A stretch of DNA of 39,892 nt from a virus. Both the position numbers and the translations under genes were made by a program. Below, in pieces: positions 7,469 to 39,892 of the stretch (position 1 is the stretch's first letter; each line of letters opens with the position of its first letter). The stretch spans positions 1 through 39,892 of the IMG/VR virus record IMGVR_UViG_3300021964_000174; one strand, written 5' to 3'. The notes under the pieces are model-generated. The model made no database searches. It was not told where the DNA came from and worked only from the letters and a program-made list of their open reading frames with translations.

Positions 7469-7702
7469 TTAGGTTGTGTACGGTGATGCTTCTGACAGCA
7501 CCAGTGACGTTCCATTGTCGGTGATGACACGGGCGCGGAACGTAGCGCCCACGTTGGTGCTCGACGTGATCGCAATCTGGACATTCACGCGGTCTTCGGC
7601 CTTCACGCCGGTCGAGGTATAAGACGAGATGGTTGCAGATCCACTGGTTGCGGTGCCGCTGCCGAGCTTGATCGGGCCTTTGTAAACGTCGCAGGTTGCC
7701 AT
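7469..7702 (-). CDS. Small beta-rich virion-type protein (77 aa)
   Basis: The ATG overlaps the stop of the DUF115-methyltransferase gene (TAATG). The product is short, rich in Thr, Ser, Val and Gly, with alternating hydrophobic positions consistent with an all-beta fold such as a head-decoration protein. There are no Cys-pair or enzyme motifs. It is likely structural because of composition and location; the exact role is not known. Confidence 0.55.
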   Translation of the reverse strand: MATCDVYKGPIKLGSGTATSGSATISSYTSTGVKAEDRVNVQIAITSSTNVGATFRARVITDNGTSLVLSEASPYTT

Positions 7703-9060
7703 TAGTCATTCTCCACGGTGAAGATGCCGTCGCCTTTGTAGTGAACGATCGGCCAGTGACGGGCCAGCTCTTCGCTCCACCAAACGTTGTCATGTACGCT
7801 CAAGTGCAGCGGCGTGCCCAAGAGGACCGGGCCAAACCCGTCCGGCTCGAACTCGATACGGAATAAGCAACCGCGACTGACGGCGCTGGAAATGTTTTCA
7901 AGAACGCTTGAAACTTCACCGGGCGGGATGTGCTCCATTACGTCGCAACAATACCCGTATTCGGCTGAAATTGGCAGGGGTTTTGACAGGTCTGCCTTCG
8001 TAAATGGCAAGCCCATGGCCGCTTCGTCACGCGAGTTTTCAACGAAGTCGATCAGGTGGACGTTGTGGCCCTTCTCGGTGAGCTTCACCGCAGCGCGACC
8101 CGCCCCGCAGCCAAGGTCAAGCACGTCGGCGCCCGGCGGCAGCCAGCCATCAATGACGTGCACGATCTGCTCGGCAGGTGACATCCGCCCATAGTCGGGG
8201 CTCTCCCACACGATGGCGTATTTCTCGGCCTCGGTCATCGCTGCCGCCTTTTGTTTCATGCGCCAGCGCTCGGGCAGAATGCCATCGCCGTAAACCGTAA
8301 CCTTGGTCCCCATTCGCTTAAGCGCATCTTCAATGACGAAAAAGTATTGATACTGGACCGCCATCGTAAAACTCATGCAATAGGCGCGATCGCCAAAGCG
8401 CTGATACATGAGCGGTTCATCATCGTTCATTGGCTGGCTATAGGCGTGACGTTCTTCGCCTTTCACGCTGCTGTCGAACCCAAACACATGCAGATCACGA
8501 TGCCCCATAGCGTGGGCAAGGCAGAGCGCACTGTTGCCGACCGATCCACCGCCGCCAATGAGCGTATAACCGCCCGCGTTGCGCTGGACGGTCGAAAAGT
8601 TGTCTTCGATGTCAGGTGAGTTGAGATGCACCATCTCGGTGCGGGCCTCGGGCACCAGATTGAACAGCGCCGGGTGACACTGCGAGGCGAGCATGTAGTT
8701 ATGAGCGTCTGGGTCAATCAGGCTTGCGTTCTCAGGCCGTGCATCAATGATGAATTGAAAATCAACCTCAATGCCGCGCTCTGATAAGAACTTAGATGCG
8801 CCGTTGACGGCAATCACAACGTAGTCTTCAGCCATCTTGCGGATCATGGCCGTGTTATCTGCCAGCGACGGACCACCACCGACGATGAGGGCGCGTTCTT
8901 CAAACGCATCCCGGCACGCAAACCACTTAAATCCCCGCGTTGAATTCACCGCAACGTTGCGATTAATGCCCTCCAACGTGACGTTGGACGTAACGGCAAC
9001 CTGCAGCGGCGCCGATGCATGCGGGTTTTGCAGTTCAACCATGAAATCGTGATTTTCCAT
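7702..9060 (-). CDS. DUF115 (MptE/Maf-like) domain fused to class I SAM methyltransferase (452 aa)
   Basis: Two domains are visible. Residues about 50-265 carry the DUF115/MptE-like layout: GGGPSL (61-66), IAVNGASK (83-90), QFIIDARPEN (102-111) and a GGGGSVGNSALCLA segment followed by HVFGFD (169-196). This superfamily includes 6-hydroxymethylpterin diphosphokinases and the Maf-type glycosyltransferases that add nonulosonic sugars. Residues about 295-452 are a Rossmann methyltransferase with motif I VLDLGCGAG (313-321), HLIDF (335-339) and CCDVMEHIP. The ATG is preceded by GGGAGGGG. The gene sits among capsid genes. A role in modifying a virion protein or a host glycan is possible; substrates cannot be read from sequence. 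Confidence 0.75.
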   Translation of the reverse strand: MENHDFMVELQNPHASAPLQVAVTSNVTLEGINRNVAVNSTRGFKWFACRDAFEERALIVGGGPSLADNTAMIRKMAEDYVVIAVNGASKFLSERGIEVDFQFIIDARPENASLIDPDAHNYMLASQCHPALFNLVPEARTEMVHLNSPDIEDNFSTVQRNAGGYTLIGGGGSVGNSALCLAHAMGHRDLHVFGFDSSVKGEERHAYSQPMNDDEPLMYQRFGDRAYCMSFTMAVQYQYFFVIEDALKRMGTKVTVYGDGILPERWRMKQKAAAMTEAEKYAIVWESPDYGRMSPAEQIVHVIDGWLPPGADVLDLGCGAGRAAVKLTEKGHNVHLIDFVENSRDEAAMGLPFTKADLSKPLPISAEYGYCCDVMEHIPPGEVSSVLENISSAVSRGCLFRIEFEPDGFGPVLLGTPLHLSVHDNVWWSEELARHWPIVHYKGDGIFTVEND

Positions 9061-11944: not shown

Positions 11945-12545
11945 GGCCGTCCACTCCGTATGTCCAGTCTTTGAGCAGTTGGGCGATTACAGGATCACGC
12001 TGTTTTGGCGCCATCGTTGGAATGGGCGGCGTTCCCTGTAGGGCTTGACCAAAGGCCGCGCCTTCCTCTTGAGCGGCCCTGAATGAGCCAGGGGCGGGGC
12101 CAGTGCCGGGGGCCGGTCCAGCGGCTCCAACAGCACCTTGCGGGCCTGATGGAGCAACGTCGCCCGTGTATTCCATATGCCAAGGGTCTTGTTTGATCGG
12201 GAACCGTAGGCCGTACTGTTCCGCGTTCTGGCGCATCCAGCGCAGTGCGTCCGGGCGGGGCTTGTAGAAGTCGATCGCGGTGGCCGCCTTGCCGTGATGC
12301 TTGCCACGACCCCACGGCGCAAGCACACCGGGCTTGCCGGTCATCGGGTCTAGGCCATGCCGACGAGCAGCCGCGACCTGTTGATCCCAGTTGCGCCCCG
12401 TGTCCGAGATCAACAGCTGATTGCGATACTCAGGCGGCATGTTCATGAGCATACGCGCCAACGCCATCTTCATCGGGTCGGCCAAGTTGCCGTATCCCTG
12501 ACGGGCGTTGTCATTGAGGTGTTGCGTGATGTCGTATGGCAGCAT
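11937..12545 (-). CDS. M15-like zinc peptidase, probable virion-associated peptidoglycan hydrolase (202 aa)
   Basis: Residues 81-93 (GKHHGKAATAIDF) and 121-125 (PWHME) resemble the two zinc-binding motifs of D-Ala-D-Ala carboxypeptidase / L-Ala-D-Glu endopeptidases (HxxGxAxD and WHxE). 'DTGRN' and an aromatic-rich spacer fit the same fold. The HG-to-D spacing is one residue longer than usual, which is noted as odd. The C-terminal 75 residues are Gly/Pro/Ala-rich and may anchor it to the particle. Its place between portal and scaffold suggests a virion-borne lysin used at entry, not the lysis endolysin. Confidence 0.6.
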   Translation of the reverse strand: MLPYDITQHLNDNARQGYGNLADPMKMALARMLMNMPPEYRNQLLISDTGRNWDQQVAAARRHGLDPMTGKPGVLAPWGRGKHHGKAATAIDFYKPRPDALRWMRQNAEQYGLRFPIKQDPWHMEYTGDVAPSGPQGAVGAAGPAPGTGPAPGSFRAAQEEGAAFGQALQGTPPIPTMAPKQRDPVIAQLLKDWTYGVDGLG

Positions 12546-14563
12546 TAGTTTGGCGGCCCCTCATCCCGCAGTTGGGCATCTGCAATCATGCGCTCGATAT
12601 CAAGCTCGGTCTTCATCGCGTCGGCCTGAGCCTTGGCGTTGATCTTGGCCATTTCCGCCTCGACGCCGGCCTGCGTCTTGGCCATGTCCATCTGGCTCTT
12701 CTGGGCGTCGATCTCAGCCTTCATCTGCATCGACTCGGCCTTGGCCTTCTCAGCCTCAACGGCGGGATCAGGCGGCGGCGGCTCGGGCGGCTGTTGTGCG
12801 GCCTGTTCGATGGCCTGGCGCATCTCGTCAAGGCTATCTTCCATCTGCCGGCCGCCCTTGAAGCCCCGAACGCCGAATTCGAGCATGTCGAGGCCGAGCT
12901 TCTGCATCGGTGGCCCGCCCATCTGCGCAAGCGGCATAAACGCCTGCATAAATGTCGCCATGGATTGCAGCAGTTCGGTGCGGTCCTGCTTTTCTTGCGC
13001 CGCGTCCTCGAAGATCGTCGAGTCGGTTTCGATGTCTACGTGGTAGCTGCGCAGCCGGTCATTGCGCATGATCTCGACCACTTGGTCGATCGTGAGCACA
13101 TCAGGCGGTGGCGGCGGTTGCTGGCCCATCATCATGGCCTGCATCTGCATCTGAGCGTATTGCGCCTGCACTTCAGCCATCGTCGGCAGTTCTTCGCCGG
13201 TCATCTCCATCAGGATTTCAGGCTGCATATGCTCGGCAATCAGTTCGGCCTTGATCCGCATTCCATCCCTGATCCACCGCTGCACATCGTGCTGGCGTTC
13301 CTTGATGCGGGCGCTGCCGTATTGCGCCTTGATGCTCTGAGCCGTCGCCGTCTCGCTGGCTTGGCTCTGGCCGCGCATGATGTCGCTGATGCCGGTAACT
13401 TCGTAAATCGTCTCAATGAGCTGTTGGCGCTGCTCATAAAGGCCGGCAAGAACCGCAATGGCGGGCTGGAGGTCTTCAACCTGGAATGCGCCTTGGAACC
13501 CGCCGCCCTGGATGAAGGCCGCGAAGTTCTCGACGGGAATAAACTGGTTGTCCGATGCCTTGGCGAGCCGGGCCAGCTCCTTGACGGCAGCATCATAGAC
13601 GCCGCGGCGCTTCAATGCCTTTGTCAGCCGGCTAATGCGGTCAGTGATCTCGTCAAGGTCGTCAATCTGGTCTTCATACTCAACGATCGGGCTGCGCGGT
13701 ACGAACGAGCAGTTGGACCACACGCCCTGGATCGGCTCCGCCATCGGGAAGAAGCCTTCGAGGTTGTATGGGTCTTCGTCCACACGCAGAATGTACGGAT
13801 AGCCCTTAACAACCCAAAGGCGCTCTTTCTTGGGCTTGTGCCAAATCTCCCAGACCTCGGCGCGCTTCAAGTCCTCGGGTATCTCCGAGTCTTTGTTGCC
13901 GAACCCGTCTGGCGCCCAGTCCAGAGGGATGTCGTCGGCGTTTGGGATATCCATTTCACGGAGGTCGGCACGGGTGAAATGGTGGCGGAATCCCACCCAC
14001 CAGACATCAGACCAAGATTTGGCCTGAGAGTGCAAAAAGTCGCCGTAATACACGTGTTCGTCGCGGATCATCTGGCGGACGATGATCTCGTTGCCCATGC
14101 CGTCGTCACCGGTTTCGGCCTCGTAGCAGACGCGGACCACGCCACGGCCGGCAAGCGCCATGTCCTTCACGGCGCGACGGTTCACCTTGTCATGCTCGGT
14201 CGTGTCAATGAGGAACATCAACGACTTTTCGAGCATTTCGGCGATGGTGCGGGCGGTCTTGTCCTTGGCCTGCGTGAACCGCTGGCGCACATCGGGCTTA
14301 GGCTGGCGCGCATAGAGCGCCGACATTGTGGTTTCAGTGTTAGCGTAAACGATCTGAAAGCGGCGAGCCATCGCCTTGCGGTGGTGGCCCTCACGGTCGT
14401 TGAGGTAGCGTTTCTCAAACTTCTGGCCCGCTTCCCAGAACTCCTTGTGTTCCTTCTCGGCGATCTGGAGCTGTTGCAGCCAGAACCTCGAGGTCCGAGG
14501 CTTGGTTTGCGGGCGCTCGACCTCTTTGATGTCAACGTCGGGGTTGTTCTTCTGGTCAGCCAT
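12545..14563 (-). CDS. Portal protein (672 aa)
   Basis: Length and order (after terminase, before scaffold and capsid) fit a P22-type portal. The N-terminal half has features of these portals: 'FEKRYLNDREGHHRK', 'RRFQIVYANTETTMSALYAR', and 'DMALAGRGVVRVCYE'. 'TGISDIMRGQSQASETATAQ' near residue 395 is a strong portal signature. The last 120 residues are a long Met/Gln/Ala-rich coiled coil, like the P22 barrel. It is coupled to both neighbours by TAATG. The dodecamer forms the DNA entry vertex. A long open frame on the opposite strand is a compositional shadow. Confidence 0.85.
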   Translation of the reverse strand: MADQKNNPDVDIKEVERPQTKPRTSRFWLQQLQIAEKEHKEFWEAGQKFEKRYLNDREGHHRKAMARRFQIVYANTETTMSALYARQPKPDVRQRFTQAKDKTARTIAEMLEKSLMFLIDTTEHDKVNRRAVKDMALAGRGVVRVCYEAETGDDGMGNEIIVRQMIRDEHVYYGDFLHSQAKSWSDVWWVGFRHHFTRADLREMDIPNADDIPLDWAPDGFGNKDSEIPEDLKRAEVWEIWHKPKKERLWVVKGYPYILRVDEDPYNLEGFFPMAEPIQGVWSNCSFVPRSPIVEYEDQIDDLDEITDRISRLTKALKRRGVYDAAVKELARLAKASDNQFIPVENFAAFIQGGGFQGAFQVEDLQPAIAVLAGLYEQRQQLIETIYEVTGISDIMRGQSQASETATAQSIKAQYGSARIKERQHDVQRWIRDGMRIKAELIAEHMQPEILMEMTGEELPTMAEVQAQYAQMQMQAMMMGQQPPPPPDVLTIDQVVEIMRNDRLRSYHVDIETDSTIFEDAAQEKQDRTELLQSMATFMQAFMPLAQMGGPPMQKLGLDMLEFGVRGFKGGRQMEDSLDEMRQAIEQAAQQPPEPPPPDPAVEAEKAKAESMQMKAEIDAQKSQMDMAKTQAGVEAEMAKINAKAQADAMKTELDIERMIADAQLRDEGPPN

Positions 14564-15729
14564 TAGCTATCCGCATCGTAAAGGGCCTGCTGCACCTCGA
14601 TCAGCGAGAAGCGGGCGGTGACAATGGTGTTGATCGTGTCGGAAAGAGCCGTGAGGTAAAACACGTCGCCGGGCGAAAGCACGAACGGTTGCTCGGGGTT
14701 AATCGACACGGTGTTTTCAACCGCTGTGTCGATATTGGCGCGGAACACCTCATACCGGGAATTGGAGGTGGGGTTATAGGCGATACCCTTGATCGTCACG
14801 GTGGGCGTTGTCCCAGGGGCGATCTTATTCACGTTGATCCACAACCAATCAGCTAGCGCCACAGACTGAAGCTGGGTGTGATAGATGCACTGTTGTGTCG
14901 TGCCGTGTCCGGTCGGAATTTGCGCGAGCGTGGCTCCGCCTGTGGTTGCCGTGATGTTGATAGTGCCGGCATTAACCTGGCCGCTGCCAGCCAGCGCCAC
15001 GGCAGCACGATTGATCCCAAGCCACGTCGAGGTCGTCACCACATTGGTGGTTCCATCCAACGTGACTGTCTCTTGCTGAAATTTACGGTTGGCATCAATG
15101 CCAGTGATTTGGATGAGTTGGGCGCCCGTGCCGGCTGGGTCACCATCATCATCCGTTGAGGTGGACGCGATCGTCAACGTGGTGGCCGATGTCGGCGGCG
15201 TGTAGGTACCGCCAAACGATGAAATCACCTCTTCAGAAGTATCAACGTCGAGGTTGTAGCCGAACTTATTGAATGTCCGGTGGCCCTGCCGGACGCCCTG
15301 TGCCACCTCATAGTGGTAATCTGTCGGACGCACGACGGTCGCGTCGTAGTCCTGCGACACGGTGCCATCAATCGGCACGTTGAGCGGGTGGCGGCTGCCA
15401 TATGTGGTTTGCAGGCGGAAATATGTCTGGTCCGTGCCGTTGTTGGTGTAAACGACCCGCATGTAACGGCGGGTGTTCGTGAACCGATGCGGCACATTGA
15501 TCCCGGCCGTCTGATAATAGCGGGTGAGCGTGCTGTCTACGTTGGTGCCATCGGGGCTGTATTGGACCGAATAGATGCCATCCACGTCAGTTGTGACGCT
15601 AACAACCGTATCAGGCCATTGGCTGACATCTTCCCAATCGCCCGTGAACACCCCACTGCCGGCAAGCGGCGTCGTGGAGCTGTTGGTCGTCGAGACCGTC
15701 GACAGGGCGCCGTGGTAGAGCTTGGACAT
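14563..15729 (-). CDS. Virion structural protein between terminase and portal (388 aa)
   Basis: The ATG overlaps the terminase stop (TAATG). The product is Thr/Ser/Asn/Gly-rich and beta-patterned throughout, with repeated 'TTDVDGIYSVQYSPDGTN'-type hairpins and 'NPTSNSRYEVFRANI'. There are no enzyme or zinc motifs. A beta-rich protein here could be a head fibre or collar component. I do not recognise a precise family. Confidence 0.55.
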   Translation of the reverse strand: MSKLYHGALSTVSTTNSSTTPLAGSGVFTGDWEDVSQWPDTVVSVTTDVDGIYSVQYSPDGTNVDSTLTRYYQTAGINVPHRFTNTRRYMRVVYTNNGTDQTYFRLQTTYGSRHPLNVPIDGTVSQDYDATVVRPTDYHYEVAQGVRQGHRTFNKFGYNLDVDTSEEVISSFGGTYTPPTSATTLTIASTSTDDDGDPAGTGAQLIQITGIDANRKFQQETVTLDGTTNVVTTSTWLGINRAAVALAGSGQVNAGTINITATTGGATLAQIPTGHGTTQQCIYHTQLQSVALADWLWINVNKIAPGTTPTVTIKGIAYNPTSNSRYEVFRANIDTAVENTVSINPEQPFVLSPGDVFYLTALSDTINTIVTARFSLIEVQQALYDADS

Positions 15730-17060
15730 TAATCAACGTCCTCATATTCAAGCTCTTCCATCATGTCGTCGAAGGTCATCGGCTTCAGAAGTTCCTTAAT
15801 AGGATCGACCTTCTTGCGCGCCGGCTGGAGTTCACGCCAAGCCATGGCGAGATAGCGGAACGAGTCTGCTGTGTGCGATGTCCAGTCGTGCAATGGCTTG
15901 TCGCGGAACACGCCCTTTTCTTCGACCTTCTCGGCTCGATACTGGCGCAGGGCGTCGAGGCCATAGTCACAGCGCGTGCGGTCAAACCAACAGTGCGGCA
16001 GCGTTTCCCGAACGGCGTTAATGCCGTCTTCCACCTTATGGTTGGGGACGAGCCTGGGCGACAGACCTAGGCCGCGGAGGGTTTCGACCCTGGTCCGACC
16101 CGTCCCCAATTCTCTGACACGGGCGTCATGCGGCACCCAGTCGTCGCCGGGCTTGTAGCCGCGCGCCTTGATGACCGCTGCATAGTGGGGCAAGCCCTGT
16201 CCGTGGGCCTCGTAGTGGTCGATCACTCGGATTTCGTTTCCGATGACCTGCCAGAACCAGATCGCCGTACTGTCGCCAATGCCCAAATCCCAGACCGTAT
16301 GGACAGGCAAGTCAGGATCAGGTCCGATGTCACAGATACGGCCATCTTCGGAGAGTTTGGCCAGTTGGGGTGAATAATAAGCCCCTTCGAATACCTCACG
16401 GAAACCGCCTTCCCAGACGTGGTCATAGAGTTCGGGGCGGTCCAGGCGATCGCGCTGGCGTGTGCGCTCCAGGATCGACGGGAACCAGGGGTTGTCGCGC
16501 CAATTGCATTCGGTGACCTTCACACGGTCGTCGGCGCGGCTTTCACGGAAGCGCATGTGCGTGGCGCTGCGTTTGCTCTCGGGGTTCCACGTGACCCAGA
16601 GTTCGCTGTCTTCTTCGCGCAGCGTCGGGATGAGTTTCATCCACGCTTCATCAGTGACGGGTTCGGCCTCGTCCACCCAGGCGAGCAGTATCCGTGACTT
16701 GGATTTGATGCTGTCGATTGAGCGGTCGAGGCCGGTAAAGCTGTAATGAATGCGGCCTGAGCGGGTGCGGATGTAGCGTTCACCGATGTCGAAGAACGGC
16801 GCGAGCCATGGCGTAGTGCGGATGGCGGCCTTGATCTCTTCGAGCGAGCTATCTTCAAGCGAGTTCTGGAACTGGCGACCGCAAAGGATCATGCCATTCC
16901 TGCCCTGCATATCCCACATCCAGGCGCGAACGGCAGTCATCAGGGCGAAGGATCGTGTCTTACCGGAACCACGGCCACCATAAGCGGCGCGCACGTCAGC
17001 CGATCCCTCGAAGATCGGGATCAGCTTAGGGACGATGTGGATATCAATCGTCTGCGCCAT
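15729..17060 (-). CDS. terL: Terminase large subunit (443 aa)
   Basis: This is the DNA-packaging motor and nuclease. Walker A is GGRGSGKT (residues 28-35). Walker B is ILLAWVDE (124-131) with the catalytic Glu. The coupling motif WVTWNP is at 155-160. The nuclease domain begins with VWDLGIGDS (257-264), carrying the first metal-binding Asp, and a later Asp lies in 'THTADSFRYL'-like sequence (HTADSFRYLA). This arrangement is of the PBSX/Terminase_3 type, common in podovirus-like phages of alphaproteobacteria. It overlaps the small subunit gene by 17 bases. Confidence 0.92.
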   Translation of the reverse strand: MAQTIDIHIVPKLIPIFEGSADVRAAYGGRGSGKTRSFALMTAVRAWMWDMQGRNGMILCGRQFQNSLEDSSLEEIKAAIRTTPWLAPFFDIGERYIRTRSGRIHYSFTGLDRSIDSIKSKSRILLAWVDEAEPVTDEAWMKLIPTLREEDSELWVTWNPESKRSATHMRFRESRADDRVKVTECNWRDNPWFPSILERTRQRDRLDRPELYDHVWEGGFREVFEGAYYSPQLAKLSEDGRICDIGPDPDLPVHTVWDLGIGDSTAIWFWQVIGNEIRVIDHYEAHGQGLPHYAAVIKARGYKPGDDWVPHDARVRELGTGRTRVETLRGLGLSPRLVPNHKVEDGINAVRETLPHCWFDRTRCDYGLDALRQYRAEKVEEKGVFRDKPLHDWTSHTADSFRYLAMAWRELQPARKKVDPIKELLKPMTFDDMMEELEYEDVD

Positions 17061-18694: not shown

Positions 18695-18906
18695 TCTGAC
18701 CCTCTGATATGCCGTTCAAGTTGTTCGATCTGCAACCGCTGGCCCTCGATTGTGCGTTGCAGTGGCTCCACTTCAGCTGACCTCATGTCGGCCAGTTGAG
18801 CCGTTAGCCGGTTGATCTCTCCAATGGCGAGTGTCAGGGCAACGTCTTTGACGTGCTTTCGATGATCCCTGATCGCTTGTTGCATCATGGATATGTCTGC
18901 TGTCAT
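18691..18906 (-). CDS. Small coiled-coil protein (71 aa)
   Basis: The protein is almost wholly helical with heptad-like leucines from residue 25 to 68 (LAIGEINRLTAQLADM... LQRTIEGQRLQIEQLE). It overlaps its neighbours on both sides with ATGA junctions, so it is co-translated with the ribbon-helix-helix regulator. It may dimerise or bind a partner. Function is unknown. Confidence 0.5.
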   Translation of the reverse strand: MTADISMMQQAIRDHRKHVKDVALTLAIGEINRLTAQLADMRSAEVEPLQRTIEGQRLQIEQLERHIRGSE

Positions 18907-19100
18907 TTTGCTGCGCCCCGACGGTTGAGAGCGTCGCGGCGGTTGAGGTAATGCCGCAGGGCGACGTTCACAATCTCGGTCATGGATGAGTCATCCACGC
19001 CTGCGTAGTATTTGACGCGGCGGCGCTCGTCCTCGTCGAGGCGGATGGTGACGCGGGTTTCGTTGCCTTCGTACTTACGTGGGCGACCTAGCTTTGCCAT
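18903..19100 (-). CDS. Ribbon-helix-helix transcriptional regulator (65 aa)
   Basis: After a GRPRKY start resembling an AT-hook, residues 15-20 (RVTIRL) form the DNA-contacting beta strand, followed by two helices (DEDERRRVKYYAGV and SMTEIVNVALRHYL). This is the Arc/MetJ/CopG layout. AAAGGAG precedes the ATG. It is the first gene of the leftward run, divergent from a promoter that contains a perfect 17-bp palindrome 80 bases away. It is probably the repressor of that promoter and perhaps of its own. Confidence 0.75.
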   Translation of the reverse strand: MAKLGRPRKYEGNETRVTIRLDEDERRRVKYYAGVDDSSMTEIVNVALRHYLNRRDALNRRGAAK

Positions 19101-23389: not shown

Positions 23390-24223
23390 TCACCGTCCTC
23401 CGTTCAAAACGTATTCCTGATATTCTTTAGGCGTCATACCATTCGAGAGTCGGTCATCCGCGTGGCGCCCGTTCCCATAGCGCCCCTCGCAAACCTTGCT
23501 GAGATTGCTGTCCTCCTTCCAAAGCCAGTCAAAGCTAAACCACGGCTGCTCGACGAGGTAATCGGACTGATTGGCCTTCGCCATCGCCTCTTCGAACTCA
23601 GCCATCGTGTAGTGGTTGTCGTCCATGATCTGCCGGATGCGATCGCGGCGATCCCTGGTCAGTTTTCGAACCTGGGCCTTGCCGGTGTCTTTGGCGTAGG
23701 CGTTCCACGTCTGGCGGATGTGCTCCAGGTCCGGGTCCATGTCGGTTGGCAAATCCATCTGCTTTGCCATTGGCGCTCTACGGCCAGTAACTGCGGTAGC
23801 AGTTACTTTTCCTTCTTCTCCTTCTTCTCCTTCTTTGTATGTTTGTCGGGTAGTTGTCGGGTAGTTGTCAGTCTGTTTGTCGGGTAGTTGTCGGCCGTCC
23901 TGATATTCGTCGTAATTACAAATCGTTACGAGGCACGGCCGCCTGTCGCCCAAGTTGTCGATTTTTATGATGTTGTGGTTCGTTAGAGCCCTAACGATCG
24001 TTCGAATATTGCGCACAGACAGGCCAGACTTTTCAGATATTTCACGAACCGAAATCATCAGTTGTCCGCGCTTTATGTTGTACGGTCGCCCACGGTAATC
24101 AATGACCCGGTCCTTCCACTCGACATGAGTCAAAAGATCAATGAACACCAAACGAGCCATAGGATTTCGTCCGAGAAGGTCGTTTTCGTACAACTTGCGA
24201 TGCAGCTTGATGTAACCGCTCAT
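23390..24223 (-). CDS. Replication initiator, lambda O-like / replisome-organiser type (277 aa)
   Basis: The start is the ATG at 24223, overlapping the previous gene (ATGA). Residues about 1-105 match the winged-helix domain of phage replisome organisers: 'MSGYIKLHRKLYEN' at the start, then RGQLMISVREISEKSGLS (52-69) and a recognition helix RNIRTIVRALTNHNIIKI. A low-complexity linker (about 109-145) follows, and the gene sequence of this linker contains tandem iterons. The C-terminal half (about 155-277) is the expected partner-binding region. It probably opens the origin and recruits the host helicase. The linker's EGEEGEEG comes from a CTTCTTCTC microsatellite. Confidence 0.75.
   Translation of the reverse strand: MSGYIKLHRKLYENDLLGRNPMARLVFIDLLTHVEWKDRVIDYRGRPYNIKRGQLMISVREISEKSGLSVRNIRTIVRALTNHNIIKIDNLGDRRPCLVTICNYDEYQDGRQLPDKQTDNYPTTTRQTYKEGEEGEEGKVTATAVTGRRAPMAKQMDLPTDMDPDLEHIRQTWNAYAKDTGKAQVRKLTRDRRDRIRQIMDDNHYTMAEFEEAMAKANQSDYLVEQPWFSFDWLWKEDSNLSKVCEGRYGNGRHADDRLSNGMTPKEYQEYVLNGGR
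23787..23898. other. Putative replication origin: iterons inside the initiator gene
   Basis: On the + strand there are five tandem copies of an 11-bp unit, TTGTCGGGTAG: 23843-23853, 23854-23864, a diverged copy at 23865-23875, 23877-23887, and a partial copy at 23888-23898. Beside them lies a 30-base pure pyrimidine tract (23807-23836) and a perfect 8-bp inverted repeat with a 4-base loop (GTAACTGC/GCAGTTAC, 23787-23806). In lambda the origin iterons likewise lie inside gene O, between its DNA-binding and partner-binding domains. Confidence 0.7.
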
Positions 24224-24438
24224 TCGTCCGGTCCCTCGCCTGAAAACACATAGACCTCTTTGCCGCAGTCCCAGACGGGGAACCCGTACAGATACGCGGC
24301 ATCGAAGACGCCGATCTCTTGGCAAGCGGCGTGAAAATTGACAAATTCTGTGGGCGTCATCTCACCGCAGAGGTTGAGATAACGGATCGGCTTGGGTGTT
24401 GCCGATTTGCTATTGCTTCGATTGTGTGGGGATGGCAT
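24220..24438 (-). CDS. Small protein between HTH regulator and initiator (72 aa)
   Basis: The start is taken as the ATG at 24438 (MPSPHNRSN). The frame is open up to an ATG at 24537, but that extension would be the translation of a terminator hairpin. Residues 25-60 (LCGEMTPTEFVNFHAACQE) look folded, with four cysteines. It is joined to the initiator by ATGA. In lambda this position is between cII and O. Function is unknown. Confidence 0.55.
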   Translation of the reverse strand: MPSPHNRSNSKSATPKPIRYLNLCGEMTPTEFVNFHAACQEIGVFDAAYLYGFPVWDCGKEVYVFSGEGPDE

Positions 24439-25367: not shown

Positions 25368-25487
25368 ATGAAATGGAAACTGCTTGCAGCTGCATCGCTG
25401 CTCGTCCCATGGAACGCCTACGCGGCGGACCTCGGCGGAAATTGCTGCGCGGATCTCGAAGAACGGGTTGCCGAGCTTGAAGCCACG
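25368..25487 (+). repeat. Duplicate of the first 120 bp of the porin gene
   Basis: This segment matches 27853-27972 at 117 of 120 positions, by eye. The three differences are silent (ctg/cta, aat/aac, gcg/gcc). Similarity begins at the start codon and ends at codon 40. Flanks on either side are unrelated. Confidence 0.9.
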
Positions 25488-25721
25488 CTAGTTGCGTGTG
25501 TGGTGTTCGCTCTGGGCATGTGGCTGCTGTGTGTCGGCTACATGCTCCGAGCGGAGTATCTGGAGAAGCGAGATGGGAAAAGACAAGATGCCAAGAACAG
25601 CATTAGGCTGGTTGAAAGTGCGCGAGATCGACGCCGCGCCAGCAGAAGACTTCGAGACCGTAGAAGATGGGAACGTGGTTCGGCTGAAGCAAAGGGAAAC
25701 CGAACTATTCGCCGCCGCTAG
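25368..25721 (+). CDS. Chimeric protein: porin N-terminus fused to a membrane segment (117 aa)
   Basis: Residues 1-40 are identical to those of the porin at 27853. They comprise a signal peptide (about 1-20, ending AYAA) and the short coiled coil DLEERVAELEAT. From residue 41 the sequence differs: a hydrophobic segment (about 41-59) and then a strongly basic tail. The tail from about residue 69 overlaps the 25573 gene in another frame, so it may be fortuitous coding. The chimera could be exported and inserted in the membrane. It may be a duplication relic or a new gene formed by capturing the porin 5' end. Confidence 0.5.
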   Translation: MKWKLLAAASLLVPWNAYAADLGGNCCADLEERVAELEATLVACVVFALGMWLLCVGYMLRAEYLEKRDGKRQDAKNSIRLVESARDRRRASRRLRDRRRWERGSAEAKGNRTIRRR

Positions 25722-27733: not shown

Positions 27734-27852
27734 ACACATCCCCAACATAACTGCAACACGCCTTGATTGAACCTCAAATCAGGCGCTTGGTGATAGGTGC
27801 ATCGCTAGTGCTGCGTCTTTGCGTGTATGGCCAACACACAAGGACTGATCTC

Positions 27853-27972
27853 ATGAAATGGAAACTACTTGCAGCTGCATCGCTGCTCGTCCCATGGAAC
27901 GCCTACGCGGCGGACCTCGGCGGAAACTGCTGCGCCGATCTCGAAGAACGGGTTGCCGAGCTTGAAGCCACG
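27853..27972 (+). repeat. First 120 bp of the porin gene, duplicated at 25368-25487
   Basis: This is the parent copy of the direct repeat described at 25368. It encodes the signal peptide and coiled coil. Confidence 0.9.
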
Positions 27973-28995
27973 ACGGCGCGGAAGGGCAACCGTAAGGTCA
28001 GCCTGGAAGTCTCCGGACACATCCACGAGATGATCTTCTGGCGTGATGAAATTGAACTGCCCGGCGAAGAACAGGTTGACCTGTTCGACAAAGGCGGTCG
28101 GATCATGAACGATCCAAACAACTCGGGCCGGTTTCGGTTCAGGGGCTCCGCCAAGGTCAATCAAGACTTTGAAGCTGGCTTCCTCATGGAGCTGGGCGTC
28201 AGCCACAACGAAGAGGATGAGCCCTTTGAGGTTCGTCATCAGGCGCTTTACGTGAAATCACGCGCGCTTGGTACGGTCTGGCTGGGTCAGACTTCATCCG
28301 CAACTGACGGCATTGTCGAGCTGGACCTGTCCAATGGATCGGTTGCTATGACTCTGGCCAACCCCTCCATGCTTGGCGGCGGGATCATGGACGGCGGTCG
28401 TGCTCCGGTCGTCAAATACATCACGCCAACGTTGGCTGGATTTGTGCTCTCTGCCGCTTGGGAAGATGAGGACACGTATGATTTCGCAGGTCGCTTTGCG
28501 AAAGAATACGGCGGCTTCCAGTTTGCTGCCGGGCTTGGTTACGCCAAATTCGACGGCGGGGATCGCATCTCTGGTTCGGCAAGCGTCAAGCACGTTGAAA
28601 CGGGTCTGTTCGCTTCTGGGATGTATGGTCGTCTGGATGACGGCGATGGTGACATCTTTGACGTTGATCTGGATCAATTCGGCGTTGCAGCATTTGACGC
28701 GGAGCAGTGGGGCGGTCGCCTAGGCGTTGATCGCAAATGGTTCGCCCTTGGTAAGACGACGATCTTTGGCGAATACAGCCAAATCAAGTTCAAAGACGGC
28801 GGCGGCGATCTGGACTATTGGGGCGCGGCTTTGGTGCAGTCGATCGACGCGGCAGCGATGGACATCTATGTTGCCTATCGCCGTGTTGAGCCTGATCTGA
28901 TCGTTGGCGAAGAGTGTGTTAGGAGAGAATGCAACGACATCGAATGGGATGACGGCATTGACGAATTCAAGGTCGGTGCCAGGATCAAGTTCTGA
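27853..28995 (+). CDS. Outer-membrane porin, Rhizobiales Porin_2 type (380 aa)
   Basis: A signal peptide (about residues 1-20, cleavage after AYA or AYAA) is followed by 'DLGGNCCADLEERVAELEAT' and TARKGNRKVSLEVSGHI. This N-terminal block, a Cys pair, a short trimerisation coil and the KVSL first strand, is the signature of porins of Bradyrhizobium and relatives. The rest alternates hydrophobic residues as in a 16-strand barrel and ends in F (KVGARIKF), as outer-membrane proteins do. Two cysteines lie in 'EECVRRECND'. It is shorter than typical host porins. The start is the ATG at 27853; upstream in-frame codons are leader. It is a cargo (moron) gene, outside the usual phage functions. Confidence 0.88.
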   Translation: MKWKLLAAASLLVPWNAYAADLGGNCCADLEERVAELEATTARKGNRKVSLEVSGHIHEMIFWRDEIELPGEEQVDLFDKGGRIMNDPNNSGRFRFRGSAKVNQDFEAGFLMELGVSHNEEDEPFEVRHQALYVKSRALGTVWLGQTSSATDGIVELDLSNGSVAMTLANPSMLGGGIMDGGRAPVVKYITPTLAGFVLSAAWEDEDTYDFAGRFAKEYGGFQFAAGLGYAKFDGGDRISGSASVKHVETGLFASGMYGRLDDGDGDIFDVDLDQFGVAAFDAEQWGGRLGVDRKWFALGKTTIFGEYSQIKFKDGGGDLDYWGAALVQSIDAAAMDIYVAYRRVEPDLIVGEECVRRECNDIEWDDGIDEFKVGARIKF

Positions 28996-29855: not shown

Positions 29856-30055
29856 GCCGGCCGCGTGCCCCCTTTTATGCCAACGATGTCTTCATCGCGC
29901 AGATCAATGCCAGCACGGCGCCTTGCGCTCTCTTTGGCAATCCGCCGGGCCGAGTCCCGATCAGGGGCGTGAATGCGCATCCAGTGGCGATTGCCCCGGC
30001 GGGTTGTGATCTCCGGCACCATCTCAGATACGGCAACGAGATAGACGTAATTCAT
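29852..30055 (-). CDS. Small basic protein in the lysis cluster (67 aa)
   Basis: The ATG at 30055 overlaps the endolysin stop (ATGA), and its stop overlaps the Rz-like start. It begins MNYVYLVAVSEMVPEI and has an Arg-rich helix (SARRIAKESARRRAG). No membrane segment or enzyme motif is visible. A longer in-frame start exists at 30289, but it would overlap the endolysin. Confidence 0.5.
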   Translation of the reverse strand: MNYVYLVAVSEMVPEITTRRGNRHWMRIHAPDRDSARRIAKESARRRAGIDLRDEDIVGIKGGTRPA

Positions 30056-30846
30056 TCGACCGTCTCCGGTTCTTTCATCATGGTTTTCGCGGCAATGAAC
30101 ACGCTTAGGCACGCCAAGGCGGCCATCACAGGCGCCAGGCTGATGCCGGTGGACTGGACCATGCTGCCGACGGCGGAGAAGCCCATGAACTGATCGCCGG
30201 CGCTTGTTAGCAGATGACCCAAGTTTTCGAGCTGATCTGCAAACCAAGCACCAACGGAGGTGGCCACCGCGATTGGTGCGGAATACCACGGCACTTTAAC
30301 GGGCTTTGTCGCCGGTTCTTTAGGCGTTGCGATCGTGGTTGGCAGATCGACGGGCACGGGCAGAATGTCGTTGTCAGCAAACATGGCGGCCTCTGCCTTC
30401 CGGCGGCGCACCAGGCCAGCGTATTTCACTTTGGGACCGCCAGCGCCTTTGGACGCATACACCCACCTCATAAATTCAACCTCGGCGCGGGCGTAGTCGC
30501 CCCGGTTCAATCGTCGAAGGAGGGTAGAGCGCGTGAACGCGCCGACACCGAGATTGTATGTAAACGACACGAGGGCGTCGTGTTGCTGCTGATTAAGAGG
30601 CACGGTGACGAGGCGCTGCACATGGGCGGCGCACTCTTGCACTTCGGCGAGCAACGCTTCTTCAGCTTGTTCGCGTGACCAGCGCATTCCGAGCTTGACG
30701 CCGTGGATCGAGCCATAGCCGATCGTTGCGACCCCTGCCACGTCCAGATAAGCTGTGCAGGACCCGTCATCTTGTTCGACGTGGTATCCCTCAAAATGCT
30801 TGATCAGGTCAAGGCCGGGCTGGCTGATTGGGAGTAGCCCAGTCAT
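30052..30846 (-). CDS. Endolysin, GH24 (T4-like) lysozyme with C-terminal membrane segment (264 aa)
   Basis: Residues 1-150 are a phage lysozyme (N-acetylmuramidase). The catalytic set E19, D35 and T41 is visible in 'HFEGYH...YLDVAGVATIGYG', with the D-to-T spacing of T4 lysozyme. 'LNQQQHDALVSFTYNLGVGAF' and the following LLRRLN segment are typical. The C-terminal 75 residues include a membrane segment (about 233-254), an extension beyond the usual 150-165 residues. This could tether the enzyme or time its release. It has ATGA coupling on both sides. Confidence 0.85.
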   Translation of the reverse strand: MTGLLPISQPGLDLIKHFEGYHVEQDDGSCTAYLDVAGVATIGYGSIHGVKLGMRWSREQAEEALLAEVQECAAHVQRLVTVPLNQQQHDALVSFTYNLGVGAFTRSTLLRRLNRGDYARAEVEFMRWVYASKGAGGPKVKYAGLVRRRKAEAAMFADNDILPVPVDLPTTIATPKEPATKPVKVPWYSAPIAVATSVGAWFADQLENLGHLLTSAGDQFMGFSAVGSMVQSTGISLAPVMAALACLSVFIAAKTMMKEPETVE

Positions 30847-31457
30847 GCGGCCTTTCCCTCATCGTCCGCCTCAAGGGCCTGCATGGCGCCGTGGAGCTTG
30901 CCGGCGAGCTTCATGACTTTGATGTTGTTGTCGGTGATGTATTCGGCAAGTTCGGCGTATCTCTGCTCAATCTCGGTCTGGCGCTGGTCCACCGTGCTTT
31001 CGATGTCCTTCACCATCTCCCCGAACGAGTGCAGCATGGCGGCCAGGCGGGTCAGCTTGGCGCTGTCGGGGTCTTGCTGGGTGGTGACGGAGGTAGACTT
31101 GCGCTCGACGGTAACCAGACGGCTACGCAAGTCACCAAGCGCCGCTGTCACTTGTTTCTCAATGAGTGTCTGCAACTTGGCGTGTAGCGCGTCGTTGAGT
31201 TGCTTTAGGGTTTCGTCTGAGACAACCGGGCGGTCTTCGAGTTCGGCCATCCGGTCTTCCAGTTGCTTGCACCGCTTAGCAAGGAACATCCCTTGATCGT
31301 CGCCCAATGTTTCACGTGAAACATCGCCGGCGGAGGCTTCGCGCGCAGCGTCAATGAGGGCGTCTAGGTCAACGTGGAAGTGTTGGCCGCGCTCTGGGTC
31401 GTCGTCTCGGTAGGGGACCGCGACAACGCGGTGGCGGGCGGGGTCGAATTTCGCCAT
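30843..31457 (-). CDS. Coiled-coil protein upstream of the endolysin; carries a parS site (204 aa)
   Basis: The product starts 'MAKFDPARHRVVAVPYRDDD' and is mostly helical with heptads at about residues 55-75, 85-125 and 140-185. It is a soluble, acidic-basic balanced protein without recognised domain. Codons for DVSRETL (about residues 45-51) contain an exact parS palindrome. It is translated with the endolysin (ATGA). It might be a tail-tip or fibre-assembly protein, but I do not recognise it. Confidence 0.55.
   Translation of the reverse strand: MAKFDPARHRVVAVPYRDDDPERGQHFHVDLDALIDAAREASAGDVSRETLGDDQGMFLAKRCKQLEDRMAELEDRPVVSDETLKQLNDALHAKLQTLIEKQVTAALGDLRSRLVTVERKSTSVTTQQDPDSAKLTRLAAMLHSFGEMVKDIESTVDQRQTEIEQRYAELAEYITDNNIKVMKLAGKLHGAMQALEADDEGKAA
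31308..31323. promoter_or_regulatory. Exact chromosomal-type parS (ParB-binding) site
   Basis: TGTTTCACGTGAAACA is a perfect 16-bp palindrome equal to the consensus bacterial parS. Including the flanking A and T the symmetry extends to 18 bp. It lies inside the coding region of the 30843 gene. No ParA or ParB gene is present in the genome. A host ParB protein should recognise it. Confidence 0.85.
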
Positions 31458-31536: not shown

Positions 31537-32022
31537 CTAGAGGAACGTGTGTGAGGGCAGGTTGTTGCTGTTGAGAAACGCTTCGACATCATTCCGCCGG
31601 AACAGGCGCACGCCGTCCACCTCGTAATAGGGAATGCCGCCCATGGTGCCGGGCGTGCCGTTGTTGCGGACGTATTGGGCGACCTTGGAGCGTTCCCACT
31701 CTTTCACGTCGTCAGGGTCGGCGGGCTCGGTATCGAGGCGGTCCCAGTCGAAGAACTCGGAGTGGATGCGCATCTTAATGACGTAGCCCGGCGCAAAGGT
31801 CGGCGGCGTGATCTCGTTGCCATCTTGGTCGTATTCGCCCGCTGCCGTCATGAACCGACCAGAGCCCGCCCAGGGCGCCCATTCAAGGCCGGCGCGAGCA
31901 ACTTTACGGGTGCCGCCCTCACCGTCGTCAATCGACTCAATGAGCGGACGCCCCGGTGGGTTGGTTTCACCCCAAGCGACCAAGGCGGCGCGGTTTGTGG
32001 CGTATAATACTAAGTCGATCAT
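31537..32022 (-). CDS. Hypothetical tail-region protein (161 aa)
   Basis: The ATG at 32022 overlaps the stop of the large tail gene (ATGA). An in-frame ATG at 32067 would overlap further. The protein begins MIDLVLYATNRAALVAWG and contains 'YYEVDGVRLFRRNDVEAFL' near the C-terminus. Mixed alpha-beta, no membrane segment. Its position suggests a tail-fibre chaperone or tip component. The 79 bases downstream (31458-31536) hold no clear signal. Confidence 0.5.
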   Translation of the reverse strand: MIDLVLYATNRAALVAWGETNPPGRPLIESIDDGEGGTRKVARAGLEWAPWAGSGRFMTAAGEYDQDGNEITPPTFAPGYVIKMRIHSEFFDWDRLDTEPADPDDVKEWERSKVAQYVRNNGTPGTMGGIPYYEVDGVRLFRRNDVEAFLNSNNLPSHTFL

Positions 32023-35000
32023 GATGAGGCTTCCTCTATTCCAGAGTCTCCAAGGTCTTCGTCCCATTGGCGGAAGAGGGCGATGGTGCCAGTGTATGCT
32101 TCTATTGAGGATGGGATTCTGCCAAACCGCAAGTTTGCAGTGGGTGCTGGCACTGCGGTGCCGCTTGTATCTGCTGTTGCTGCTGTCCCATCTGCCGCAA
32201 GGTTGGTATCCGTCGCCGTTACCCGCGTCGCAAGATTATAAGCCACGTTTACGCCCGGCGAGTACTGCGTTAGGCTTCCACTAACCGAGACCAGACCGGC
32301 ATCAGAGGTTGACCGGCGCAGCATTGACGGCGCTCCAGTTGCCGCACCCGCTGTTAGGTCTGTTCTTAATCTTATGTTGACAGTGTTATTGGAGGCAGAT
32401 TGCCAATCCCAAATACCGACTTCCGTACTAGAATCGTTGTCTGAGTACGTTATCTCGCCTTGAGTGTGCATACAAAGTGACCCGCCAGCCGTTGCAATGT
32501 TCGCTGCGGCGATTTCCAGCGTCTCGGCTGCTCTTGTCGCAGTTGCGCCAATCGTTGGGATGTAGCTGGAGGGGACGGAGCCGACTTCAAGCTGGGCGCC
32601 GTAAATACTAATATATCCAGACGTTGATAGAGTTTGGTCCGCCTCTAAAACTCTAATTTGCACAAAGCCTGACAGATCTGTTGTCGAGCTGAACGTGATA
32701 TAACACCGATACCATCCGTTCCCCACGTCCTCAATGTCATAAGTTGGGGGAGCTGTGTCTCCAGACAACTCCGTCCCCGTTACCCCGTTGGCTAAATCAA
32801 AACTCATACTGTAATCTGTATCGTATGCGTTGCAATCCAGTCCAAGCCAATCATTCGTTCCAGCTTTGGCATAAACAGAAAGACAATATGTAGTGGCACT
32901 AGAAATCGTATGGCCGTCGTAAACAGACCGGTTTGCGGTATTAGAGGAAGTCAGACGGTCTGCATTTGTCGTTCCGTCTGGCGATGTGTCAGCGTTTGCG
33001 GATATAGTGGCTCCTGATTTGGTCCAAGCAGCGTTGTCAAATTCAGAACTGTAAACTTGCAAATTCGTCGCCGCTGCTGACTCAACCGTAATCCCCTTGT
33101 TGACGTAGCTCGTCCCGTTGTACCGGTAGGACTTGCGGCGGGGGAGATAGACGGCGGAAGAGGTCGTTGGGACGTAGCTGTCAGAACGATCTGGGTTGTC
33201 GACCATGCCGCCTAGGTCGGAGCGGTAAATATGCGCGCCCCACGCATAAAACCCAGAAGTTCCATCGCCAGAATATGTTGGCCGTGAAGTTGAATATGTT
33301 GGGGTTGCGCTATTGCTGTTGCAAATGACGATACGCGATGTGCCAGCGGCAACCATGCTACCTTGGATCAAATACCAACCGTCACCGACTGATGTTGAAG
33401 CAAAGCCGTGATCGGTTCCGTCTGTGTCTGTGATTGTACCGCTTGACAAATCAACAACACAAGAACCTCTGTCCGATCCACCTGACACATTTTCAATCTG
33501 AACGCACGCATATTGTGCATCGTCGTCTTTTAAAAACACGCCTAAAGTATAAGTCGCCCCGACAACGGTTGATGACGATTCATCGTAAACAATGTGTGTC
33601 GTGCCTCCAGAATCTTCTTCAATTAGGTCGGCTGTCAGAGTTTTATCTGGCGCTATTGCTTGGTTTCCGGTAACTGTTGAGCCAGATTTGGTCCAAGTGC
33701 CCGCAGTGAAATCTTCAGAAGTTGCAAGAAGATTATGCGGTGCCCACTTCAGGTTCCCATCCGAGTCCGTCATCACCTTATTAGACGCACCCGTGTACGT
33801 GAACATTGAGTCGAAGTCCGACTCGACGCCATTCACACGGTAATACTCAGAGCCATTCCGGTTCGTGCCGTTGAAGTCAGCAACGGTCGCTGGGCCGAGG
33901 CTCGCAACCTCGTAGGGGTCAGACGCTCTCTCTATGCCAGAGTCTCCAAGGTCAACGTCCCATTGGCGGAATAGGGCAAAGGTGCCGTAATACCCATTTC
34001 CATCGTTTGTGAACAGCTGCCCAAATTGAAAATCATCGCCTGATATATCAAGAAGGGCTGTTGGGGTTGAGTCTTCTGTTGCAGATGTACCATCTTTGGC
34101 GACATTAATTGCACCGCTTGTATGTCTGCTTGCAACATTGTAAGCGACATTAATACCTGGGCTGTATTGTCCAGTCGTCAAGCTAACTGAATCTGAAGTT
34201 CCTGCTACACGTTGTGCGCCGTCAAGAGAGCCAGTATTTCCACCTGACGTATTCAAATCCAGAACAAGTTCGTTGCTTGCGTCTGGATATGACCCGTAAT
34301 AAACAAGCTCTCGCGTCGAACTTAGATCAGCATATGTGTGCTCACCCTGCATATGGAAGCTCATCGCCGTCGTACTCGCAGCCATATCACTGCCTGCAAT
34401 ACTCAGCGTCTCAGCTGCTCTTGTCGCAGTTGCGCCAGACGTGGGGATGTAGCTGGTCGGGACGGAGCCTGCTTCGAGCTGAAGCCCATAAACATAAAAG
34501 TTTTCAGTTCCCGCACCAGCAAACGCCTCATTCCCAGTTGTGCTTCCAAGTGTTGGAGACGCGGAACTCATTATCTGAAGTCTTGCGCGCGCGAAAGTGT
34601 TCGCAGAATCTTGGAATACGACATATAATCTGTAGATACCGTTTCCAACGTCTTCGTATCCGGAGTCTACAATTGACGCCGTTCCTCCACCTGCTTGCTC
34701 GTTTTGAGACCCCATGCTGTCTAAGTCAAACGTCACCGTTGTCCAGTCTGAACTGGCTGCATATGTACCAATCGCAACGTACTGAGCTGTCCCATTTTTT
34801 ACGAAAGCAGAAACTGTGTAATCGGTGGAGGTTGATATAGTAACTACCGGGTGCTCAAAATAATGAGCCTCGTTTGTCGTGTCAGTTATCAATGCCTCCG
34901 ACATTGACGTCGCACCGTCAGGGCCAGCAGACTGGGATGCCGTCAACGTTATAGAGTCTGTGTTTCCAATGTCCCATTGCGACGAATCATTACTGTCAGT

Positions 35001-38610: not shown

Positions 38611-39892
38611 CTATCTCCCCTGCATCATCAGAGCACGGCCAAGGCGCGTTGCTTCGTCATATTCGTCTTTGTTGGCTTGCGCGGGCAGAACACCAAGCGT
38701 CCGATACGCAGAACCCATGTTTGGCGGGGCAACCGGAATTCGTGGATCAAAATTAGTCAGCCCCATCAGGCCGCGCGCAGCCAATCCAGGGGCAACAGCC
38801 CCCCCTGCGGCGCCAACAATGCCGCCAACGGGGCCGGCCACCATCGTACCAAGAGCAGCGCCACCTGATCCTGCACCAAGCGAGAATGGGTTGTTCAAGA
38901 TATTGATGTATTGAGCGCGTTCGGCCGTGCCTGAAGATGGCAATGGCGTCATCACCTCATCACCAGCGCGCGCCAATCGGCCAAGATCGTTCTTGCCGCG
39001 CACCAGATCACGCTTGCCCTGCTTTTTGACGGCAGCGCGCAACTTTGCCGGCGTGATCAATCCTTGCGATCCTGGAACCGCCGCTGAATTTGCAACTGCG
39101 TCTTCAAGAGCAATCATGTTGCGATAGCGCGTGTTCAAATTGCGCATGTCTTTTTTCAAAGCAGCGGCGGCTTTATCGCCCCCACGGCGCTTGGCTTGGG
39201 CAACGATGTTCTCTTGGATCATTTGAATCATGTCGCCTATGGCGCGCTGTGCATCCGGGTCATTGGTCATCCCGCGCGACTGACGTTTAAGATTGCTCAA
39301 ATAACGCGCGGCGTCCTCACCAATCATTGTTCCGTTGCTGTAAAGCTCATCAGCCAAATCTGAAATCATCGGCCGAACGGCACCGGCTTGCGTTCCGCGT
39401 GTGTATTCGTTGGCGCGCGCCCTGATTCTCGTTAAAAGCGTGTTGTCAGGATAGATCGTCATGCGTGGTGCGAGCTTTTTGTACGAGTCCGAAAAAGCCG
39501 CAAAGCCAGCATCCATCACTTCATCGGTGGCTCGGCTCGCGTTAATTCCTCGTTGCTCTAATTCTTTCATCAATCGCGGCGTCAATGCCCGCTTTAGAGC
39601 AGCCCGTGTAAACTGTTCGGCGGCCTGGTCCTGCATTCGGCTGGCCACTTGACCGCTAAAAGGTATCTGGTTAGCGGCATCTTCGAACCGGCGCAGCCTT
39701 TCGCTGCCAATCTTCTGGCCTCGTGTTAACGCTGTGACGCCCTCGTCCTGGAGCGTCTTGACGTTTTTGGACCGTATGGCGTTGGCGGGCGCTCGCATCG
39801 CAACTGATGGCGCCAAAGAACCCGCCACGGCACCGGCAACGCGTGCCGCACCTTCGTAGCCCGTACCTTCTGCAAGCTGGCCAGCGCCTTCT
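38611..39892 (-). CDS. DNA-ejection/internal virion protein, C-terminal part (gene split by contig ends)
   Basis: This is the continuation of the gene at 1-637; the frame is open to the end of the window. The region is largely helical with basic residues (about residues 200-450 of the joined protein). It then has a Gly/Ala-rich stretch (about 505-545), 'LGTMVAGPVGGIVGAAGG', that could cross a membrane. The C-terminus is charged. An N-terminal and a C-terminal glycine-rich segment in a long helical protein fits a virion protein ejected with the DNA. The stop at 38611 is three bases from the start of the collar-like gene. Confidence 0.7.
   Translation of the reverse strand, partial: EGAGQLAEGTGYEGAARVAGAVAGSLAPSVAMRAPANAIRSKNVKTLQDEGVTALTRGQKIGSERLRRFEDAANQIPFSGQVASRMQDQAAEQFTRAALKRALTPRLMKELEQRGINASRATDEVMDAGFAAFSDSYKKLAPRMTIYPDNTLLTRIRARANEYTRGTQAGAVRPMISDLADELYSNGTMIGEDAARYLSNLKRQSRGMTNDPDAQRAIGDMIQMIQENIVAQAKRRGGDKAAAALKKDMRNLNTRYRNMIALEDAVANSAAVPGSQGLITPAKLRAAVKKQGKRDLVRGKNDLGRLARAGDEVMTPLPSSGTAERAQYINILNNPFSLGAGSGGAALGTMVAGPVGGIVGAAGGAVAPGLAARGLMGLTNFDPRIPVAPPNMGSAYRTLGVLPAQANKDEYDEATRLGRALMMQGR
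39767..39892. repeat. Terminal direct repeat, right copy (circular-closure overlap)
   Basis: Identical to 3-128. See the left copy. The circular length implied is 39,764 bp. Confidence 0.9.

Follow-up and report, generated by a model that had tools for sequence, protein, structure and literature searches.

A Conserved Host-Type parS Site in a Phage That Lacks par Genes

Introduction

Why would a phage that encodes no partition proteins carry an exact bacterial centromere? The DNA analyzed here, hereafter the window, is the whole 39,892-nt stretch of the viral record IMGVR_UViG_3300021964_000174, and it contains the palindrome TGTTTCACGTGAAACA, which is the consensus bound by chromosomal ParB (PMC7022226; PMC10197239). 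Chromosomal parS sites of alphaproteobacteria include the identical 16-mer; the Hyphomonas neptunium consensus tabulated in PMC7022226 is exactly this sequence. Unlike chromosomal parS, however, the window copy lies on phage DNA, with no oriC or par operon nearby. A conserved host centromere in phages without par genes is surprising, although the principle has a precedent in Bacillus phage phi29.

Results and Discussion

The parS Site and Its Conservation

The site and its immediate surroundings comprise the following features.

31308-31323, no strand: parS, exact match to the palindrome TGTTTCACGTGAAACA, identical in five of five relatives
30843-31457, minus strand: parS-carrying gene (204 aa), directly upstream of the lysozyme gene; clade-restricted
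30052-30846, minus strand: phage lysozyme (endolysin), PF00959 (E = 3.4 × 10^-40), adjoining the parS gene here and also in relatives
31537-32067, minus strand: hypothetical protein that flanks the parS gene on its other side, with synteny kept in relatives

A sequence-only reading of this DNA had reported an exact parS inside the gene next to the endolysin, and both the site and its placement were confirmed. The 16-bp palindrome matches the chromosomal-type consensus at every position and is the sole match at three or fewer mismatches within the window; a search of the whole virus record returned this same site and no second copy. From base composition, 4.6 × 10^-6 exact copies are expected, in line with the earlier estimate of about one in 10^5, and a chance origin is ruled out by this expectation of ~5 × 10^-6 copies.

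The palindrome spans the minus-strand codons GAT GTT TCA CGT GAA ACA, which encode DVSRET at residues 45-50 of the 204-aa ORF. The predicted protein (P0001) consists of an N-terminal part, a linker, and long helices. It has no Pfam match above the curated cut-off and gives one marginal PHROG match, to a family without an assigned function. The AlphaFold model is of low confidence (mean pLDDT 60.6), with residues 38-52 in a segment below 50, and the DVSRET peptide falls in the linker, with indels alongside.

We gathered relatives of the parS gene by protein similarity rather than by the site, which gave five loci at 65-94% identity, and the exact 16-mer is present once in each of the five. In the complete relative genome G002, TerL is 96% and the parS gene 72% identical to the window counterpart. 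Because two of the five relatives are identical across the gene, codon statistics were calculated on five distinct sequences, one of them the window. None of these differs in any of the six parS codons, versus only 26% identity in all five for the amino-acid-invariant degenerate codons elsewhere (p = 1.7 × 10^-4 in a degeneracy-matched test). The eight codons GCC GGC GAT GTT TCA CGT GAA ACA, which cover parS, form the gene's sole run of at least four identical codons; column shuffling yields p = 5 × 10^-5 for the whole gene and p = 0.005 when confined to the first 60 columns, which are better conserved. Fourfold sites elsewhere in the gene show 46-71% identity between members. The DVSRET codons are also not the favored ones, as the probability of parS given DVSRET and the codon usage of the window is 3 × 10^-4. 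Coding pairs sharing parS had been chosen for the site, and their identical parS codons were left out as evidence.

These data bear on the alternative, already raised in the sequence-only reading, that the DNA simply follows a coding motif, with DVSRET maintained for the protein. All relatives do share this peptide, and also the neighboring LGDDQG. However, the codons of LGDDQG drift while those of DVSRET are fixed, and the peptide lies in a low-pLDDT linker with indels, indicating that the site is kept and not the peptide. The relatives were also checked for other synonymous DVSRET codons, and none was found: five of five keep the exact 16-mer while adjacent codons drift. We therefore reject the coding-motif reading on the basis of synonymous-site conservation, and such a motif or an accidental site is the least probable of the explanations that we considered.

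The same reading frame had been noted for parS in rsmG genes of alphaproteobacteria. The window site is indeed read as DVSRET, but the agreement carries little weight. One of the palindrome's three frames contains TGA and a coding copy can read only VSRET or FHVK, making a shared VSRET reading with rsmG about a 1-in-2 event and no evidence for a common protein motif. An rsmG-type coding occurrence was rejected as well, since P0001 has no such Pfam match and is not an rsmG homologue. Judging from these codon patterns, the window parS is almost certainly real and selected as DNA rather than as protein. Of the original interpretation, the part that stands is selection on the DNA of the site in a phage with no par genes; the coding motif does not. 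Recurrence in unrelated phages and the phi29 precedent, both described below, had not been noticed in that reading.

Phage Genome and Missing par Genes

The contig ends overlap by 128 bp, of which 127 are identical, giving a genome of ~39.76 kb, and this terminal redundancy indicates that the genome is effectively complete. Three further features place the phage and describe its replication genes.

1-128, no strand: terminal overlap with 39765-39892 (127/128) from end comparison; circularly closed or permuted
15729-17060, minus strand: large terminase (TerL), PF04466, the basis for placing the phage
23390-24325, minus strand: DnaD-like helicase loader/replication initiation protein, phrog_2514 (E = 5.5 × 10^-21)

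The window also encodes a portal, a major head protein, tail genes, and an Erf annealing protein. Host contamination was rejected as the source of a closed genome with terminase, portal, major head protein, and tail genes, and is also countered by relative G002, which has the 96% identical TerL and is likewise terminally redundant.

Profile searches of the window genome and of G002 found no match to ParB_N (PF02195) or to a ParA-type ATPase (PF13614), in agreement with the earlier statement that no ParA or ParB is encoded. Both are thus, as in the phi29 type, genomes of phages without their own ParA and ParB, and the window phage does not have the parA and parB genes of a parABS plasmid-prophage. 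No tyrosine integrase (PF00589), the mark of an integrating temperate phage, was found by profile search of the window genome. No replication and partition (Rep plus Par) cassette was recognized in the window, and a search of bacterial genomes for integrated-prophage relatives returned none. Co-regulation by CtrA was considered and rejected, as CtrA-type sites show no enrichment.

The nearest isolates by TerL (46-53% identity) infect Rhizobium, Paracoccus, Pseudomonas, Microcystis, and Sulfitobacter, and some of these relatives suggest that the host of the window phage is probably alphaproteobacterial. The wider TerL relatives (≤56% identity; 46 records) contain no parS at two or fewer mismatches, and the Rhizobium, Paracoccus, and Sulfitobacter phage isolates have none either. 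A search for homologues of the parS gene in TerL relatives gave weak matches, none of them convincing. The trait is thus confined to one clade of the window's group and is not essential across the wider group.

Three other features of the genome were observed. The phage encodes an outer-membrane porin at 27763-28995 (plus strand; PF13609, E = 1.9 × 10^-15), with 43-94% identity in phage relatives, and the N-terminal stretch of this porin is duplicated as a separate ORF at 25368-25721. The porin is possibly involved in receptor masking or superinfection exclusion; when used to name the host, it had no match among genomes. In the structural gene region, positions 7702-9060 (minus strand) encode an MptE-like domain fused to a methyltransferase domain. 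A 676-aa open frame at 12536-14566 (plus strand), antisense to the portal gene, is probably a codon-bias effect.

Proposed Use of Host ParABS

The lack of both a detectable integrase and Par proteins leads us to propose that the phage borrows the host ParABS system. At parS, chromosomal ParB loads as a CTP-dependent clamp, which then slides onto the DNA alongside (PMC12704722). After infection, host ParB, probably alphaproteobacterial, would load on the phage genome at the 16-mer, and the phage DNA would become a client of the host ParA gradient and polar machinery, possibly also of SMC. Borrowed in cis, ParABS would position the unintegrated genome and, during a delay in lysis, bring it into daughter cells, an inheritance that would parallel the use of Spo0J by phi29 for spore entry. 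We infer that host ParB very probably reads the phage parS. The full explanation, a functional host-type parS with positioning or partition by host ParABS as the selected benefit, is less certain than ParB binding, and we consider it reasonably probable; positioning and inheritance are favored because the phi29-Spo0J precedent exists.

This precedent is described in PMC9437464, which cites Meijer et al. 2005 for Spo0J-mediated entrapment of the phi29 chromosome in the spore. The 19.3-kb phi29 genome has four identical one-mismatch sites, TGTTTCACGTGGAACA, at 10445, 15903, 17243, and 18760, versus an expectation of 0.15 for parS at three or fewer mismatches. Like the window phage, phi29 has no annotated Par proteins and carries host-type parS-like sites in its genome; host ParB (Spo0J) acts on phi29 DNA for spore entrapment, and host ParB would similarly act on the DNA of the window phage. 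The two differ in that phi29 has a Gram-positive sporulating host, several sites, and a linear protein-primed genome, whereas the window phage is unrelated, has a single site within a gene, and probably infects a non-sporulating host.

SGI1 likewise lacks a complete Par system although it has parS sites, and it exploits the ParAB proteins of IncC plasmids in trans for its own stability (PMC10954446). It is, however, an integrative element and not a phage, uses plasmid Par rather than chromosomal ParB, and has a different site, of 22 bp. Mycobacterial extrachromosomal prophages (RedRock and others) are plasmid-like phage genomes that rely on ParB-parS, but these encode ParA and ParB and have a direct-repeat parS (PMC7157519), whereas the window phage encodes neither protein. 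By analogy, the window phage would work like phi29 and SGI1 and not like a parABS plasmid-prophage. Our search of open-access papers turned up no proteobacterial phage described as carrying a chromosomal-type parS; absence from these papers is weak evidence.

parS in Other Phages

The exact 16-mer occurs in at least 120 IMG/VR stretches, a count of contigs that were not dereplicated, many of which are from one clade and some of which may be host or prophage fragments. Full scans with two control palindromes of matched dinucleotide make-up, TTGTTCACGTGAACAA and TTTGTCACGTGACAAA, returned 5 and 11 stretches, respectively, corresponding to an at least 11-fold enrichment of parS over matched controls.

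Among the matches listed, 34 of these stretches encode TerL proteins that belong to a single superfamily; Pelagibacter phage HTVC027P (63%) and phage DSL-LC04 (59%) are among the nearest isolates. Sampling this clade by TerL provided 80 loci (L221-L300), 76 of them with enough upstream sequence. In 53 of the 76, the 400 bp preceding terL contain an exact parS, and in one more a one-mismatch site; 60 permuted control palindromes gave no occurrence in the same upstream regions. Five further loci have an exact parS at about -1057 from terL; the remaining 17 have none in the fetched region, although in one of them (L258) another part of the contig contains an exact site. The median identity of the 40-bp flanks of parS is only 57% (31 distinct flanks). 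Where the site is present in long contigs of this clade, there is one exact copy each, and ParB_N was found in 0 of 16. HTVC027P itself has a one-mismatch site, CGTTTCACGTGAAACA, at 16412-16427. Since the sample was seeded from a parS-bearing member and its loci share ancestry, these counts demonstrate conservation and not independent origins.

Most HTVC027P-like members have parS 51-161 bp upstream of terL. This arrangement would suit a role in which ParB loads host SMC condensin, as ParB-parS does with SMC in many bacteria, or organizes the phage DNA to be replicated, decatenated, or packaged. However, the site of the window clade is near lysozyme and far from terL, and in other HTVC027P-like members parS is found inside virion-protein genes. 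As its location varies between and within clades, position seems unimportant, and we regard this role as improbable. Less probable still is an effect of ParB spreading on the transcription of neighboring phage genes, as a silencer or timer. Such an effect would have a precedent in KorB, a ParB-family clamp on plasmid RK2 that silences at long range (PMC11790492), and in the two clades studied most closely the sites adjoin lysozyme or terL; however, the neighbors differ between clades, and no promoter-like site was detected at the window parS, although this is a weak test. Positioning or partition by host ParABS remains the reading that we prefer.

ParB_N is present in 4 of 97 parS-bearing viral records among the matches listed. 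In the 86 listed contigs outside the large TerL clade, the longest genes most often encode portals, head-tail adaptors, and other head proteins. The scarcity of ParB_N and this head-gene content argue against wholesale host contamination of the parS-bearing contigs. Some occurrences are not conserved features: three microvirus genomes (L005, L025, and L075; Phage_F capsid, 4.4-6 kb) have an exact parS among the matches listed, and in 74 loci found using L075 the site is present in L075 alone and absent from its relatives.

The scan also returned several unusual arrangements. Exact parS sites, up to three per phage, occur in L009 (5525, 5551, and 12130), L008 (3345), and L050 (9112 and 13975), which have a phi29-like gene set and capsids that match gut and Bacillus phages. 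The related contigs L016 and L043 have five exact parS within ~0.8-0.9 kb of each other, upstream of terL. In G147 (L096 and L289), an exact parS stands beside a parS-like palindrome, TGTTCCACGTGGAACA, with the two sites at 310-325 and 334-349.

Another protein, either phage-encoded or a different host factor, might bind the palindrome instead of ParB. Palindromes are common as operators, and the window phage encodes a repressor-like small protein at 18903-19100. We find this very improbable, however, as the same 16-mer occurs in unrelated phages and equals the chromosomal ParB consensus (PMC7022226; PMC10197239). A site common to unrelated phages makes host ParB the simplest reader.

The main rival to positioning or partition is interference, in which parS is a form of attack: replicating phage copies would draw ParB and ParA, as well as MipZ in alphaproteobacteria, away from the host, causing the phage DNA to be segregated in place of the chromosome and division to stall, to the advantage of the phage. 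In Caulobacter, a strong parS on a plasmid lowers viability ~1000-fold, and parS placed ectopically perturbs both MipZ foci and division (PMC5815017); one site on a multiplying genome would suffice for such an effect. On the other hand, blocked division late in infection brings a lytic phage little, and decoys would be expected in several copies, yet most parS-bearing genomes here have exactly one site. We therefore judge attack to be unlikely. The viability cost in Caulobacter also makes long-term carriage above a low copy number unlikely, a point against the positioning or partition that we prefer.

Conclusions

Extending the proposal beyond the window phage, we lean toward the view that a single exact chromosomal parS is common among phages that do not integrate, aquatic phages in particular, and serves to borrow host ParABS in place of partition genes of their own, in a widespread and repeatedly evolved centromere mimicry. 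If this is true, phi29 would be one example of a general class and not a curiosity of sporulation. Beyond a few models, the position of phage DNA in the cell and the survival of unintegrated genomes through division (pseudolysogeny, carrier states, lytic deferment) are little understood, and a strictly conserved host centromere in phages without par genes offers a handle on these questions, with one 16-bp site and a candidate host protein. If the phenomenon is general, phages would commonly target the machinery with which the host segregates its chromosome, and parS would be counted with LexA, CtrA, and Spo0A sites among the means by which phages read or use the host cell cycle.
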